From positions 1,835,441 to 1,899,440 of the forward strand of contig NZ_CM001489.1 of the NCBI RefSeq assembly GCF_000262465.1: 64,000 nt of DNA, given 5' to 3'. The DNA is from Frankia sp. QA3 (GTDB lineage: Bacteria; Actinomycetota; Actinomycetes; Frankiales; Frankiaceae). How positions within the stretch are numbered: position 1 is the first letter of the stretch; each line of letters opens with the position of its first letter. Under the pieces are notes generated by a model. It was not told where the DNA came from and made no database searches. It saw only the letters and a program-made list of their open reading frames with translations. The translations under genes were made by a program, and so were the position numbers. Below are positions 31,158-35,824 of this stretch, piece by piece.

Positions 31158-31308
31158 ATCGGCAGCCTAACGACCCCGCCCGGCCACCCCGTTCCCGCAC
31201 CACCCGGCGTTCGGTCACACTCACCCGACCGGCGGCACGGACACCGCCGGCCGGCGCCCGCCTTCGCCACCGGGTCCGCGGCGCATCGCCGTGAGGGCCT
31301 TGACCGAA

Positions 31309-34041
31309 CTACGCCTCCGACGCCTGATCGGCGTCATCCCGGCCCTCCCGATCGCCGGCCCTCCCCGCCTGCTCCTCCTCGATCCGCCGGGCCCAGTAGG
31401 CGATGTTGTGGCGGGTGGTGAGGGTGTCGGGGTGGTGGGGGCCGAGGACGCGTTCGCGGTCGGGCAGGAGGCGGCGGGACAGGTCCAGGGCGCCGGCCGG
31501 ATCCCCGGTCTGCCCGGTCCAGTAGGCGATGTTGTGGCGGGTGGTGAGGGTGTCGGGGTGGCGGGGGCCGAGGACGCGTTCCAAGTCGGGCAGGAGGTGG
31601 TGGAACAGGTCCAGGGCGCCGGCCGGATCCCCGGTCTGCCCGGTCCAGGAGGCGATCTCGTGGCGGGTGTTGAGGGTGCCGGGGTGGTGGGGGCCGAGGA
31701 CGCGTTCGCGGTCGGGCAGGAGGCGGCGGAGCAGGTCCAGGGCGCCGGCCGGATCCCCGGTCTGCCCGGTCCAGGAGGCGATCTCGTGGCGGGTGTTGAG
31801 GGTGCCGGGATGGTGGGGGCCGAGGACGCGTTCGCGGTCGGGCAGGAGCTGGCGGAGCAGGTCCAGGGCGCCGGCCGGATCCCCGGCCTGCCCGGTCCAG
31901 TAGGCGATCTCGTGGCGGGTGGTGAGGGTGTCGGGGTGGTCGGGGCCGCGCAGGGCGTGGACGCGGGGGAGCCAGGCGGCCCAGCGGTCGAGGTTCTGGC
32001 GGGGGGTCGGCAGGGGGCGTCGCCGCAGGGCGCGCAGGGCGTTGGCGACCTGGCCGTTCTGCCAGTGGAACTCGGCCTCCGAGCCGGCGGCCCAGCGGTA
32101 GAGCGGGTTGTCGGTGTAGATGCCGGTGATGGGGGCGAGGTCCTCGATCTCGTTGAGCAGGATGCGCCGGCCGGCCGCCGGGTCGAGCCGGCGGGTGGGG
32201 TGGCCGACGAGGTGGTCGACGAGGGCGGGGTGGGCCAGGCCCACGAGTTCCCGGGCGGTGCCGGGGTGGGCGCGCACGACGAGCCGGTCGAGGCGGGCCA
32301 GCACGCCGCGGACCGCCGCGGGCTGGTCGGGGCCGTCGAGCCAGTCGGCGGCGGCGGCCAGCAGCTCGATCGGGACGGTCGGCCCGGCGCCGGCGGCGAC
32401 CAGCGGGGTGAGCACCGGCAACAGGTGAGCGGTCCAGGAGGCGGGGTCGGCTGCGCCGGCGGTGTCGAGGAGCCGGTCGATCAGGGCGCGCAGCAGCCCG
32501 GCGCGGTCGTCGCCGAGGCCGAGGCGCACGAGCAGCTCGTCGCGTTCGGCCTCGGTGAGGCTGCGGTAGGTGTCGGCGAGCAGCCGGGCGAGCAGCCAGG
32601 CGCCCGTCCCCCGCGCGCACAGCTCGCCGAGCACGTCGCAGGCGCGGTCCGGCACGCCGCGGCGGCGCAGGTAGCGGGCCAGCGGGCCCGCCGCGGGCCG
32701 GTCGACGGCCAGCCCCCGGCCGCCGGGAACGTCCGGTCCGGGCTCGCGGCTGGTGACCACGACGTGCACCCGCGGGCTGTCCGGGTCGGTGGCGAGCGCG
32801 ACCAGGGCCGCGGTGACGCCCTCGCCGACGGTGTCGTCGAGCTGGTCGAGGCCGTCGACGACCAGCCGGACGGGGTCGTCGCCGGGCAGGTGGCGCAGCG
32901 GGCCGGCGACGAACTGGACCAGCGGCGGCCGCTGCTGGCGGGCCTCGTCCGGTTCCGCGCCGCGGTAGGCCGCCAGCGCCAGGTGGAAGCCGGGGACGCT
33001 GACGAGCAGCTGGCGGCGCAGCTCCTCGGCCAGCGACCACACGGTGGTGGCCCGGTCGGCGTAGACGACGGCGTGCACGAACCGGTCCGGGACGGCACCG
33101 GCGGCGAGCTCCGGGCGGGCCAGGGCGGTGACCAGCGTCGACTTGCCCGACCCGGCGGGGCCGTGGACACCGACCCAGCGGGCGCGCCGCGCCCGGGCGA
33201 CCAACCCCTCGACCGTCGGCGGAACCTCCAGCGCGGTGGTGAGCTGCTCGGCGAGGGCCGCGTACGGCGAGGCCGGCGGCGGGACCCGTCCCGGCGGGCG
33301 GCGCCAGTTCGGGGCGAGCCACAGCCCGGGGTCGCCGGCGGCGACGACCTCGGCGCCGTTGACCGACAGGTGCTGGGGGACCTGCCCCGCGCAGACGATG
33401 TCACGCTTGGCGTCGGCGCAGGTCAGCCAGTCGCCGGAGCCGCTGTGGCCGTGGCGGAGCAGGTCGACGAGCCGCCGGGTGAAGCAGCCGTCGGCGGCCG
33501 GGCCGTCGTGGGTGGCGGTGAGCACCTCGAAGCGTCGCCCGGCGGCCATCGCGATGTCGCTGACCAGTCGGGCCACCTCGACCGCGCCCTGACCGCTGTG
33601 GCAGGCGTCGAGGAGCAGGACGAGCCCGTCGATGCGGTCGTGGACGCGCAGCAGCTCCCGCAGCCGGGTCCCGACCAGCCAGGCTCGGTCGCCGGTGGGC
33701 CGCTCGGGGTCGTCGCAGTCGCTGGGCAGCAGGTAGAAGTCGGCGCGTCCGCCGGGGCCGTGGTCGACGCCGAGCTGGCCGTGGCCGACGAACGCCAGCA
33801 GCAGCGTCGAGGCGGTGGCGTCGGCGTGCGCGAACGCCTCCGTCACCGTCGTGCTCAGCTGCGTCATCGACGGGTCGAGCAGCAGGCCCGAGCGGTCGGG
33901 CAGCGCGGACACGCAGCCGCCGAGCGCCGCGTCGGTCAGCGCCTCGTACAGCTCCTCGGCGAGCCCCGGCAGGAACGACAGCGGTCCCGCCGCCGCGCAG
34001 CGCGCCCCGATGACCAGCGCGTGCCGTCCGGCCACGGCCAC
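31309..34041 (-). CDS. Caspase-like peptidase, STAND NTPase and TPR fusion
   Basis: 910 residues. 1-235: caspase-like (peptidase C14) domain with catalytic His87 in FVGHGQLG and Cys147 in LDACHSGQG. About 285-560: P-loop NTPase of STAND/NACHT type, Walker A GPAGSGKSTLV at 294-304, Walker B LVVDGLDQLDD, then VVVTSREPG. About 560-735: helical spacer. About 735-895: TPR-like units of 42 residues (LGPHHPDTLTTRHNIAYWTG). This sensor-switch-protease layout fits an NTP-gated death or defence protein: repeats sense, NTPase oligomerises, protease cuts. Target is unknown. It follows the hydrolase gene by 31 bp and is likely co-transcribed. GTG 34041 or 34035 may be the start. Confidence 0.85.
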   Translation of the reverse strand: MAVAGRHALVIGARCAAAGPLSFLPGLAEELYEALTDAALGGCVSALPDRSGLLLDPSMTQLSTTVTEAFAHADATASTLLLAFVGHGQLGVDHGPGGRADFYLLPSDCDDPERPTGDRAWLVGTRLRELLRVHDRIDGLVLLLDACHSGQGAVEVARLVSDIAMAAGRRFEVLTATHDGPAADGCFTRRLVDLLRHGHSGSGDWLTCADAKRDIVCAGQVPQHLSVNGAEVVAAGDPGLWLAPNWRRPPGRVPPPASPYAALAEQLTTALEVPPTVEGLVARARRARWVGVHGPAGSGKSTLVTALARPELAAGAVPDRFVHAVVYADRATTVWSLAEELRRQLLVSVPGFHLALAAYRGAEPDEARQQRPPLVQFVAGPLRHLPGDDPVRLVVDGLDQLDDTVGEGVTAALVALATDPDSPRVHVVVTSREPGPDVPGGRGLAVDRPAAGPLARYLRRRGVPDRACDVLGELCARGTGAWLLARLLADTYRSLTEAERDELLVRLGLGDDRAGLLRALIDRLLDTAGAADPASWTAHLLPVLTPLVAAGAGPTVPIELLAAAADWLDGPDQPAAVRGVLARLDRLVVRAHPGTARELVGLAHPALVDHLVGHPTRRLDPAAGRRILLNEIEDLAPITGIYTDNPLYRWAAGSEAEFHWQNGQVANALRALRRRPLPTPRQNLDRWAAWLPRVHALRGPDHPDTLTTRHEIAYWTGQAGDPAGALDLLRQLLPDRERVLGPHHPGTLNTRHEIASWTGQTGDPAGALDLLRRLLPDRERVLGPHHPGTLNTRHEIASWTGQTGDPAGALDLFHHLLPDLERVLGPRHPDTLTTRHNIAYWTGQTGDPAGALDLSRRLLPDRERVLGPHHPDTLTTRHNIAYWARRIEEEQAGRAGDREGRDDADQASEA
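31394..31965 (-). repeat. 126-bp tandem repeats encoding 42-residue TPR units
   Basis: Unit starts at 31394, 31520, 31646, 31772 and 31898 are exactly 126 bp apart: four full units and a partial fifth. The units are nearly identical at DNA level (differences such as ttgtgg/tctcgtgg and tgtcggg/tgccggg), so they expanded recently or are being homogenised. They encode the C-terminal sensor repeats of the caspase-like protein. Confidence 0.95.
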
Positions 34042-34072
34042 CCCCCTTCTCCGGCGGCTGGGCGGATGCCGG

Positions 34073-35128
34073 TCAGCCGGCGACGAGCGCGTCGCCGACC
34101 GGCCCGCCGACCTGGCGGGAGGTCAGGTAGTGCAGCGCCTCATGCGGGGCGGAGCCGTTGTCCACCGCCACGTTGACCAGCCCCGCCACGTTGACCAGCC
34201 CCGCCACGGTTTCCAGCCCCGCCACGGTTTCCAGCCCCGCGACGGTTTCCAGCCCCGGCGCGTTGTCCGAGCCCGGCGCGTCGATCCGCGGCCCGGATCC
34301 CGCCGCCGGGGCGCGGCGGGGGAACAGCCCGGTGAGGTCGGGGACGGCGGCGACGATGTCGTCGTCCGCGGCCACGTTCACCCAGCGGCGCACCGCCTCG
34401 GGGTAGACGGGCGGCTGCGGCACCAGCCGGTCGTAGACGATGCGGCGCAGCCCGAGCGGGCTGCCGAGCGTCACCAGCAGCGGCAGCGGCCCGGCCCGCC
34501 GGCAGGCGGCCTCGAACGCCACCACCGAGCCGAGCGAGTGCCCGATGAACACCCGGGTGTCGTCGTCGACGGCGGCGGCGACCCGCTCCTGCACCCGTTC
34601 CCGCATGCCGGGCTCGCCGAGGTAACGCACGACCTCCGCCAGCGCCCGCAGCACGAACCGGTGCGCCACCGCCATCCCGAACGGGGCGAACCAGCGCAGC
34701 CGGGCCAGCGCCGCCAGCGCGCCGCGGGCCGCATTGCCCATCCCCTGGCGCTCGCCGCCGGCGCCGGACAGGTCGGCGAGCTCGGCGCGGGCGACGGCGC
34801 GGTCCCGCTTGCTCGCCGCCGCCAGCGCGGCGCGGCGCAGCCACACCTCGGCCAGTTCCACCGCCGCGGCGGCCTGCGCGGGTGGCAGCCCGGCGAGGTC
34901 GACCGGCGCGGCGCCCTGGCCGTCCGGCCGGTCGAACAGGTCGGCGTAGTAGGCCATCCGCGCGCCGAGCGCGCCGGGGGACCCGGGGGAGCGGCCGACC
35001 CGGTCGGCGAGATCGGTGTGGCCGGCCTTCCACAGCCCGTCGGCGAGCGCCAGCCGCCACGGTTCGCCCAGCGTCGCCGGGCCGCGCTGCCGCTGCCCGA
35101 TCCCGTGCACGAACACGATCTCCGCCAT
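34073..35128 (-). CDS. Alpha/beta hydrolase encoded with the caspase-like protein
   Basis: 351 residues from ATG 35128 (MAEIVFVHGIGQRQRGPATL); an alternative ATG 35182 adds 18 residues. The oxyanion strand is VFVHGIG, the nucleophile elbow FIGHSLGSVVAFEA, and a late HEALHYL may supply the His. The fold resembles lipase-like PGAP1-type hydrolases. No signal peptide or membrane helix. The C-terminal part has a five-fold VAGLET/VAGLVN repeat. The gene precedes the caspase-like gene by 31 bp on the same strand. As partner of a STAND protease it could be a lipid-cutting effector or the protease substrate; this is inference. Confidence 0.75.
   Translation of the reverse strand: MAEIVFVHGIGQRQRGPATLGEPWRLALADGLWKAGHTDLADRVGRSPGSPGALGARMAYYADLFDRPDGQGAAPVDLAGLPPAQAAAAVELAEVWLRRAALAAASKRDRAVARAELADLSGAGGERQGMGNAARGALAALARLRWFAPFGMAVAHRFVLRALAEVVRYLGEPGMRERVQERVAAAVDDDTRVFIGHSLGSVVAFEAACRRAGPLPLLVTLGSPLGLRRIVYDRLVPQPPVYPEAVRRWVNVAADDDIVAAVPDLTGLFPRRAPAAGSGPRIDAPGSDNAPGLETVAGLETVAGLETVAGLVNVAGLVNVAVDNGSAPHEALHYLTSRQVGGPVGDALVAG
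34167..34256 (-). repeat. Five tandem 18-bp repeats encoding VAGLET/VAGLVN
   Basis: Two units of gccacgttgaccagcccc and three of gccacggtttccagcccc (last with one change). On the minus strand they encode (GLETVA)3(GLVNVA)2. In frame near the hydrolase C-terminus. Confidence 0.95.
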
Positions 35129-35448
35129 GTCGCCCCCGCCTCGTCCCCGGTCCCCGCGCACCTGCTCGGACGTTGCTGCCATTACACCCCATCGACTGCG
35201 AAGCGTGACATACCTGGTGTGATTCGCGTACTCCGACGCTGCTGGACGGCGTCGGTCCGTGCACGCCGGCCCCTGCCTGCCGGTCCGCGCATGTCGGCCT
35301 GATGCCGCGGTCAGCCATCTTCAGCCGTCGCCGATAGTGGGCTGGCCTGCTGGACCATGGCGACTCCCCTCCGTGGGCGTGCGCATCTCCGTGGCGCACC
35401 CATCTCCGCGGGCGTGCACATCTCCGGCGTGTGCATGTCTCCATGGGC

Positions 35449-35674
35449 GTGCGAACTGGAGGCCGGGGGCCTGCTGCGGCGCAGTCCCGACCCGGACGCG
35501 CGCGGCACCCTGCTCAGCCTCACCGAGGACGGCGAGGAGGTGGTCGGCCTGCTGCGCCGGCGTCTCGCCGAGCTGCTCGGCCGCCGCCTGGTCGGCTGGT
35601 CGGCGCCCGAGGCCGAGGCCTTCGTCGCCGGGTTGGAGCGCTTCGTGTGGGAGCTGCGCGACGAGCTCGGATGA
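35449..35674 (+). pseudogene. MarR-type regulator, C-terminal fragment
   Basis: Reads LEAGGLLRRSPDPDARGTLL, SLTEDGEEVVGLLRRRLAEL and FVAGLERFVWELRDELG: the wing and dimerisation helices of a MarR protein. The helix-turn-helix is missing and is replaced by a short repetitive region (35380-35448, copies of gggcgtgcacatctccg-like sequence) that probably mediated the loss. Confidence 0.6.
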
Positions 35675-35824
35675 GTGGGCCTGGTCGACCGGGCGACCAG
35701 CGCGCCCAGGGGAGTGGCCCCGCCGGCCCTCGCCGCCGGCCGGATGCCTGCCGGACGCCGGCCCCCGACTGCCGGACGCCGGCCCCGCCGCCCGCCGGCC
35801 CCGCCGTCGATCCGCGCGGGCGGA

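Follow-up and report, generated by a model that had tools for sequence, protein, structure and literature searches.

A stand-alone caspase-STAND-TPR and alpha/beta-hydrolase gene pair in Frankia sp. QA3 and its relatives across bacteria

Results

We analysed a 64,000-nt stretch of the 7.59 Mb genome of Frankia sp. QA3 (contig NZ_CM001489.1, positions 1,835,441 to 1,899,440; hereafter the window, whose own numbering is used throughout), in which two adjacent minus-strand genes encode an alpha/beta-hydrolase and a caspase-STAND-TPR protein. An earlier note made from the letters of this DNA had placed the two genes 31 bp apart, and this spacing is confirmed (31 nt, or 37 nt with the caspase start at GTG 34035). 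This start is preferred because homologues begin at MxGRxxLVIG, and it gives a protein of 908 aa (31309..34035, minus strand; 910 aa from GTG 34041) that is backed by open reading frames (ORFs), homologues and a structural model. The hydrolase gene (34073..35128, minus strand) runs from ATG 35128, a Met whose counterpart is shared by most aligned homologues, to the stop at 34073 and encodes 351 aa. Since both proteins have homologues and confident models, they are not chance ORFs; judged from their sequences, both genes are complete and their active sites intact. For both proteins, the highest-ranked named homologues (own excluded) are from Frankia.

The larger protein comprises, all on the minus strand, a caspase domain (33304..34035; model residues 3-246), a STAND NTPase with a following helical region that is Apaf-1-like (32182..33300), and a TPR superhelix that is the predicted sensor (31354..32106; PF13374/PF13424, kinesin light chain TPR matches, E 2.8e-35 for TPR_10). 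The active-site residues are His87, Asp145 and Cys147 in the 910-aa numbering (the dyad being His85/Cys145 when counted from GTG 34035). The caspase His and Cys, Walker A/B motifs and C-terminal repeats that the earlier note had pointed out are all there, and the caspase and Walker residues hold across 31 aligned sequences: Walker A reads GPAGSGKST, His87 and the Walker B Asp (D396) are invariant, and Cys147 is kept in at least 90%. The proposed architecture is likewise supported by domain scans and by the predicted structure (predicted local distance difference test, pLDDT, 90.9), whose folds match MALT1/metacaspase, Apaf-1 and kinesin-light-chain TPR. The protein combines a His/Cys dyad in a caspase fold, as in the caspase superfamily (C14), with the Walker A/B motifs, AP-ATPase-like fold and repeat C-terminus of a STAND NTPase. 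Pfam C14 does not recognise the caspase domain; the NCBIfam EACC1-caspase model NF047832 scores 45.9 bits against a cutoff of 140, and the FxSxx-COOH system TPR protein model NF040586 scores 126.4 bits against a cutoff of 300, over the TPR part only. Homologues numbered 37 proteins at E 1e-3.

Part of the TPR region is built of near-identical tandem units of 126 bp (42 aa; 4.5 copies at 31386..31948, minus strand, 93% matching), the four full units being 90-94% identical in pairwise DNA comparison. Diversifying selection on these units was considered and rejected: their pairwise codon differences (3 synonymous, 42 nonsynonymous before correction for repeat counting) reduce to 1 synonymous to 14 nonsynonymous when counted once per alternative codon, a ratio for which p is 0.054 under random change and 0.46 when third positions are held to G/C. 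A Burkholderiaceae TPR array examined for comparison gave 7 synonymous to 24 nonsynonymous.

The hydrolase carries a Ser198-Asp257-His329 triad, with the GHSLGS nucleophile motif that the earlier note had singled out, and a helical lid at residues ~62-190. Pfam gave no confident domain (best E 0.024), and 291 homologous proteins were found at E 1e-3, the best 120 of the 291 reaching down to 4e-63. The model (pLDDT 87.0) has a predicted serine esterase/lipase fold whose closest solved counterparts appear to be DDHD (PA-PLA1/Nir2) lipase-like domains, the best Foldseek match being the Nir2 DDHD domain (E 7.4e-3, prob 0.99) and acyl-protein thioesterases lying among the tied matches. The loop between the catalytic Asp and His contains an 18-bp repeat array (GLETVA/GLVNVA; 34165..34274, minus strand; TRF), is disordered at residues 285-313 (pLDDT <50) and separates the two residues by 71 positions, compared with 26-43 in 82 other aligned rows (A4). 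Within the lid, the motif ARLRWFAPFG is conserved and offers Arg143 and Arg145 as candidate cut sites.

Pairing of the two families across bacteria

A hydrolase-first profile scan of named genomes was used to ask how the two families are arranged elsewhere, and the best 80 of 380 loci, ranked by similarity, were read. Conserved adjacency in unrelated genomes, which the earlier note had named as support for its proposal, was observed: a caspase ORF lies within 300 bp of the hydrolase in 74 of the 80 loci, whose titles span five phyla as judged from names (Actinomycetota, Pseudomonadota, Cyanobacteriota, Acidobacteriota and Bacteroidota). A caspase profile to which these 80 loci had themselves contributed detected 78 caspase ORFs in the 1,413,458 bases surveyed, 76 of them adjacent to the hydrolase, two within 2 kb and none elsewhere. 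General loss of the dyad, which the earlier note had offered as a refutation, was not seen; the caspase His, the Asp two residues before the Cys, and the Cys are intact in 86/86 partners. The hydrolase triad is intact in 90/90 loci (the 80 plus the ten best from the class survey described below), a count partly built in for Ser, as the locus patterns included GHSLGS, and free of this for Asp and His.

That every hydrolase adjoins a caspase was rejected on the remaining six of the 80 loci. The caspase lies 1920 bp away in L066 and 761 bp away in L073; the genome of L020 (Nocardia aurea) does hold a caspase, but elsewhere, farther than 10 kb from the hydrolase; L017 ends 429 bp past the hydrolase, and its 2.3 Mb genome has no caspase match; L041 holds a partial hydrolase in a genome with no caspase match; and the genome of L088 (Sinomonas) also has no caspase match. 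At L088:4602-9592, the caspase-free hydrolase stands beside an nSTAND1-WD40 gene that looks TIR-like by eye and a tandem SLATT gene.

Among 76 pairs, 40 are ordered hydrolase-then-caspase, 26 are divergent, six caspase-then-hydrolase and four convergent, and parsimony requires eight orientation changes on the hydrolase tree, compared with a mean of 30 for shuffled labels. The gene order of the window is unusual in the STAND group, in which 29 loci comprise none co-directional, 24 divergent and five convergent. Hydrolase and caspase distances are correlated over the 76 pairs (r 0.85, 0/2000 permutations; shared ancestry ignored), these being the 76 of 87 rows with both proteins after shorter rows were dropped. 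No hydrolase-caspase fusion protein was found among the ORFs scanned in loci L012-L169.

A class survey of 296 genomes returned hydrolase matches at 1e-10 in 42 genomes, at 43 non-self places, of which 40 were examined, the three weakest being left out. A caspase ORF lies within 500 bp in 14 of the 40 (three with weak caspase scores of 25-41 bits); the ten best non-self places all have one beside or overlapping, including an apparently truncated locus (L136) where the hydrolase match, 158-303 of 311, is overlapped by a 252-aa caspase ORF, and lower-scoring hydrolases mostly lack a nearby one. Searching the same sample with the caspase-STAND profile gave eight genomes at 1e-10: in the two strongest (that of the window and G118) the hydrolase is beside the caspase, and in none of the six weak ones is it adjacent, four having no hydrolase at 1e-10 and two (G279, G301) having it elsewhere. 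In a phylum sample of 396 genomes, only the genome of the window and G118 matched this profile at 1e-30. A caspase-first search of 250 genomes in the family of G050 found no match and is uninformative. Collectively, these neighbourhoods support the view that the hydrolase and caspase families are linked as partners across unrelated genomes.

Co-occurrence without adjacency in Nocardia

A caspase-first search of Nocardia (the genus of G064; 118 genomes) gave 80 caspase matches in 35 genomes, one to six per genome, a few of which are pieces of one gene. The genus was recognised from the Nocardia aurea genome of L020, whose matches fall at the same coordinates as those of G716. Close-clade hydrolases were taken as those at E 1e-110 or below, a cutoff chosen once the gap up to the following value (6e-87) had become apparent. 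There are 34 such copies, spread over 33 genomes, and a further copy, truncated by the end of its contig, is counted for G755. Of the 118 genomes, 34 hold both families, one holds a caspase only, none a close hydrolase only and 83 neither (33 and two for the first two classes without the truncated copy); Fisher's 7e-29 for this table ignores shared ancestry and is descriptive only. The close hydrolase adjoins a caspase gene in only nine of the 34 cases (eight divergent and one convergent, the latter with 31 bp between ORFs), and for the other 25 the caspase is on another contig or more than 1 Mb away. Rare adjacency of homologues had been put forward in the earlier note as grounds for refutation; Nocardia would satisfy it, yet co-occurrence there is near-perfect, and adjacency was too strict a criterion. 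Adjacency is therefore not essential, but co-occurrence comes close to being so.

The dispersed genes largely keep their active sites: the triad is complete in all 30 close hydrolase loci that were read, 22 of which lack a caspase within 1.5 kb, and caspase copies with no hydrolase found nearby keep Cys in 39/39, Asp in 39/39 and His in 38/39 (a locus whose hydrolase is adjacent by coordinates, L274, was left out of these residue counts). The sole caspase of G695 (L273:4694-7672), the one caspase-bearing genome that lacks a close hydrolase, has its catalytic His replaced by Tyr, a loss noticed afterwards and with n=1.

Up to six caspase sensors accompany one close-clade hydrolase. G707, assembled as a single contig, has six full-length caspase paralogues, a close hydrolase that lies 1.5 Mb away from the nearest paralogue, and a second, less close hydrolase. 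Identity between these paralogues is higher in the caspase domain (48-73%) than in the STAND (36-54%) and TPR (25-52%) regions in 15/15 pairs, TPR identity being above STAND in two of the 15 and equal in two. Caspase-STAND-TPR genes of G707 form a tandem duplication (L311; G707:C1:4445500-4453500), and neighbouring caspase matches also occur in G668, G677, G718, G725, G739 and G753.

Sensor variety and genomic contexts

The hydrolase family has several kinds of partner, given here as examples among scanned proteins rather than as a census: caspase-STAND-TPR, caspase-nSTAND1-WD40, caspase-WD40 (L036), caspase-iSTAND (L085), caspase with a Cpn60 part (L043), caspase-VMAP-M2-TPR (L135) and a VMAP-M2/VMAP-C protein that has an AAA ATPase gene after it (L217, a Streptomyces plasmid). 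In L043 (3535-5886) the caspase is fused to part of a Cpn60 chaperonin, the remainder of which lies in the next ORF. Plasmids yielded 20 records with a hydrolase match, and in the three regions read the next gene matched the caspase profile (3/3). On a Rhodococcus ruber megaplasmid (L216:1-12387), the hydrolase and a caspase-STAND-WD40 gene lie between recombinase genes and an IS1634 transposase.

The unit had no match in 50,697 phage records. In viral_contigs, the caspase query found no match and the hydrolase found seven relatives, two of which (L220, L221; IMG/VR) have a caspase ORF beside them. Its best PADLOC match reached only E 0.0012.

In Frankia sp. QA3, comparison with related genomes identifies the two genes as an insertion that holds no other gene (31221..35338, no strand; blastn against six congeneric stretches), ~4.1 kb long, with a sharp left edge at 31220/31221 and an approximate right edge. 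Left homology stops at 31220 in four of the six stretches (L210, L211, L212 and L214), the left match of L213 stops with its contig, and that of L215 stops at 31180. Right homology restarts in G005 (L210) at 35339, with 31 bp identical, and again at 35456, and in G011 (L211) at 35817, with 13 bp between both flanks. Among 12 further genomes of the genus that were searched, none has the hydrolase and one (G002) has a weak, distant caspase match (E 2.6e-8).

In G005 the insert site is occupied by an MFS fragment (PF07690, 34.9 bits) together with the 5′ half of a MarR gene that is intact there and encodes 148 aa (L210:2371-2817; PF12802, 38.2 bits). By comparison with that gene, the plus-strand ORF adjoining the insert in the window (35357..35674) retains the MarR 3′ half; it has no Pfam match of its own, and a 17-bp tandem repeat at 35369-35452 occupies the place expected for its 5′ half. 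The earlier observation that no transposase, restriction or CRISPR gene flanks the pair holds for the six neighbouring ORFs covered by a Pfam scan (28.6-40.4 kb). The same scan of these ORFs and both proteins found no VMAP-M/VMAP-C, MoxR or vWA, and none of the six matched an MBL-fold pro-nuclease, the insert itself holding only the two genes.

Discussion

The pairing of these families is already known. In VMAP (vWA-MoxR) systems, a caspase never occurs without an alpha/beta-hydrolase gene alongside, according to the available text of Kaur et al. (2020, PMC7159879), which says only that both operate together. The window pair resembles VMAP ternary systems in its N-terminal caspase domain and adjacent gene of the same hydrolase family (a Streptomyces plasmid locus, whose caspase protein carries both VMAP-M2 and VMAP-C, scores 185 with our hydrolase and 125 with our caspase hidden Markov model) and differs from them in that its caspase lacks a VMAP domain and carries STAND-TPR in one chain instead. 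As the unit has no MoxR, vWA or VMAP, it is a variant distinct from the published VMAP form, and the earlier suggestion of an undescribed combination stands for the stand-alone form and falls for the hydrolase-caspase pairing as such. The caspases of this pairing, intact throughout, are also unlike those in the vWA-fused effector position, ~70% of which are inactive in the portion of that paper concerned. Its EACC1-caspase systems (NF047832), as there described, are similar in having two genes and a caspase with a variable C-terminus, in which STAND or repeats are possible; here, in contrast, the 5′ partner is a hydrolase rather than a membrane EACC1 protein, and the model score is below cutoff. 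In the accessible text of Kaur (2021, PMC8195603), alpha/beta-hydrolases are found fused to bDLD3 rather than paired in this way. Unlike Apaf-1/apoptosome and MALT1/metacaspases, the window protein places sensor, switch and protease in one polypeptide, with TPR instead of WD40. Open-literature titles and abstracts among the matches listed, which cover few subscription papers and so do not establish absence from print, included none naming a stand-alone caspase-STAND-TPR plus hydrolase system. What is new is the stand-alone form and the unlinked Nocardia pattern.

We favour, at a little short of even confidence, the reading that the caspase-STAND-TPR protein is a nucleoside triphosphate (NTP)-switched sensor protease that would activate the hydrolase, which would in turn attack the membrane lipids of its own cell. 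A trigger, possibly a phage or other invader, would bind the TPRs; NTP exchange would lead to oligomerisation through an Apaf-1-like switch and so to caspase activation; the caspase would cut the partner hydrolase and switch it on; and the activated hydrolase would degrade membrane lipids, causing cell death or arrest. In metacaspases, an Asp two residues before the Cys goes with Arg/Lys specificity, and because the window caspase has its Asp at that position, we guess that the cut might fall after Arg143 or Arg145 in the lid motif. The parallel for the proposed protease-activated hydrolase comes from nuclease-protease pairs and canu, in which gated pro-nucleases are activated by caspases; in the available text, Tuck et al. 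(2025, PMC12799240) expect further enzyme classes to be switched on by proteolysis. Like those pairs, the present unit joins a protease to a dedicated second enzyme that is paired with different sensor systems; unlike them, that enzyme is a predicted serine hydrolase and not a metallo-beta-lactamase (MBL) nuclease, and it has no conserved gating insertion. The Nocardia pattern, with several caspases and one close hydrolase never seen without them in this sample, is our main reason for placing the caspase upstream and the hydrolase downstream, since a dependence in one direction only is in keeping with a protease that acts on an effector below it.

Several observations weigh against this reading. 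The hydrolase family has no conserved active-site-blocking insertion of the kind found in gated nucleases, the long loop being peculiar to the window copy, and the candidate lid Arg sites are Arg/Lys in only 67/83 and 64/83 A4 rows. The distance correlation between the families would also be expected from joint vertical descent. In Nocardia, 71 of the 80 caspase matches are not beside a close hydrolase, eight caspase genomes carry a second, less close hydrolase (E 6e-87 to 2e-31), and five of the 83 caspase-free genomes hold only one of that kind. There is no clear defence island: in a PADLOC scan of 109 of 206 neighbours near 31 loci (one of 110 sampled was dropped as part of a caspase ORF), 17 of 19 families were matched by 1/109 neighbours each, counts that carry no background rate. 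Cleavage, lipase activity and a role in defence are all predictions, and the conflict system proposed in the earlier note is likewise an inference.

The missing gating insertion also speaks for an alternative that we regard as unlikely, in which the hydrolase is not cut and instead acts as a second effector that an oligomeric caspase-STAND complex holds or recruits, so that both enzymes fire in parallel. Its lid motif RLRWFAPFG is basic and aromatic, like membrane-docking helices in our reading, and the statement of Kaur et al. (2020, PMC7159879), in the text available, that both operate together is neutral enough to suit it; the Nocardia arrangement of several caspases and one mostly unlinked hydrolase fits a diffusible substrate at least as well.

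We consider it improbable that the hydrolase acts on the caspase as a brake or modifier, for example by removing an acyl or ester group, with the caspase as sole effector. Intact caspases with no hydrolase found nearby would agree with this, as would the acyl-protein thioesterases among the model's tied fold matches, and the absence of the close hydrolase from all 83 caspase-free Nocardia genomes fits a brake too; however, one close hydrolase gene would then have to restrain up to six caspases. The lost His in the only caspase without a close hydrolase (G695) is something a brake would allow as well. Equally improbable is a role outside antiphage defence, in self/non-self recognition, development or stress-induced death, which would suit the many filamentous actinobacterial hosts (judged from locus titles), the near-identical TPR array that recalls fungal allorecognition NLRs with their variable TPR or WD repeats (PMC10907252, in the text available), and the lack of both a defence-island signal and a match in phage records, but not the patchy spread, the plasmid copies and an insertion that the other sampled members of the genus lack, all of which look like mobile accessory immunity.

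As a possible though doubtful extension drawn by analogy, bacteria may hold an immune network of many sensors and one executioner, in which several caspase-STAND-TPR proteins with differing sensor repeats would feed a shared hydrolase. The analogy is with helper NLRs that serve sensor NLRs in plants; the Frankia insert would be the minimal form, with one sensor and one effector, and Nocardia the expanded one.

Should the favoured reading hold, the activation of partner enzymes by proteolysis, so far demonstrated with nucleases, would reach lipase-like effectors, and bacteria would possess an apoptosome-like sensor with its own caspase in one chain and a dedicated executioner. The Nocardia pattern would then make sensor-helper networks testable in bacteria, and the two-gene insert is small enough for whole transfer into a laboratory host.

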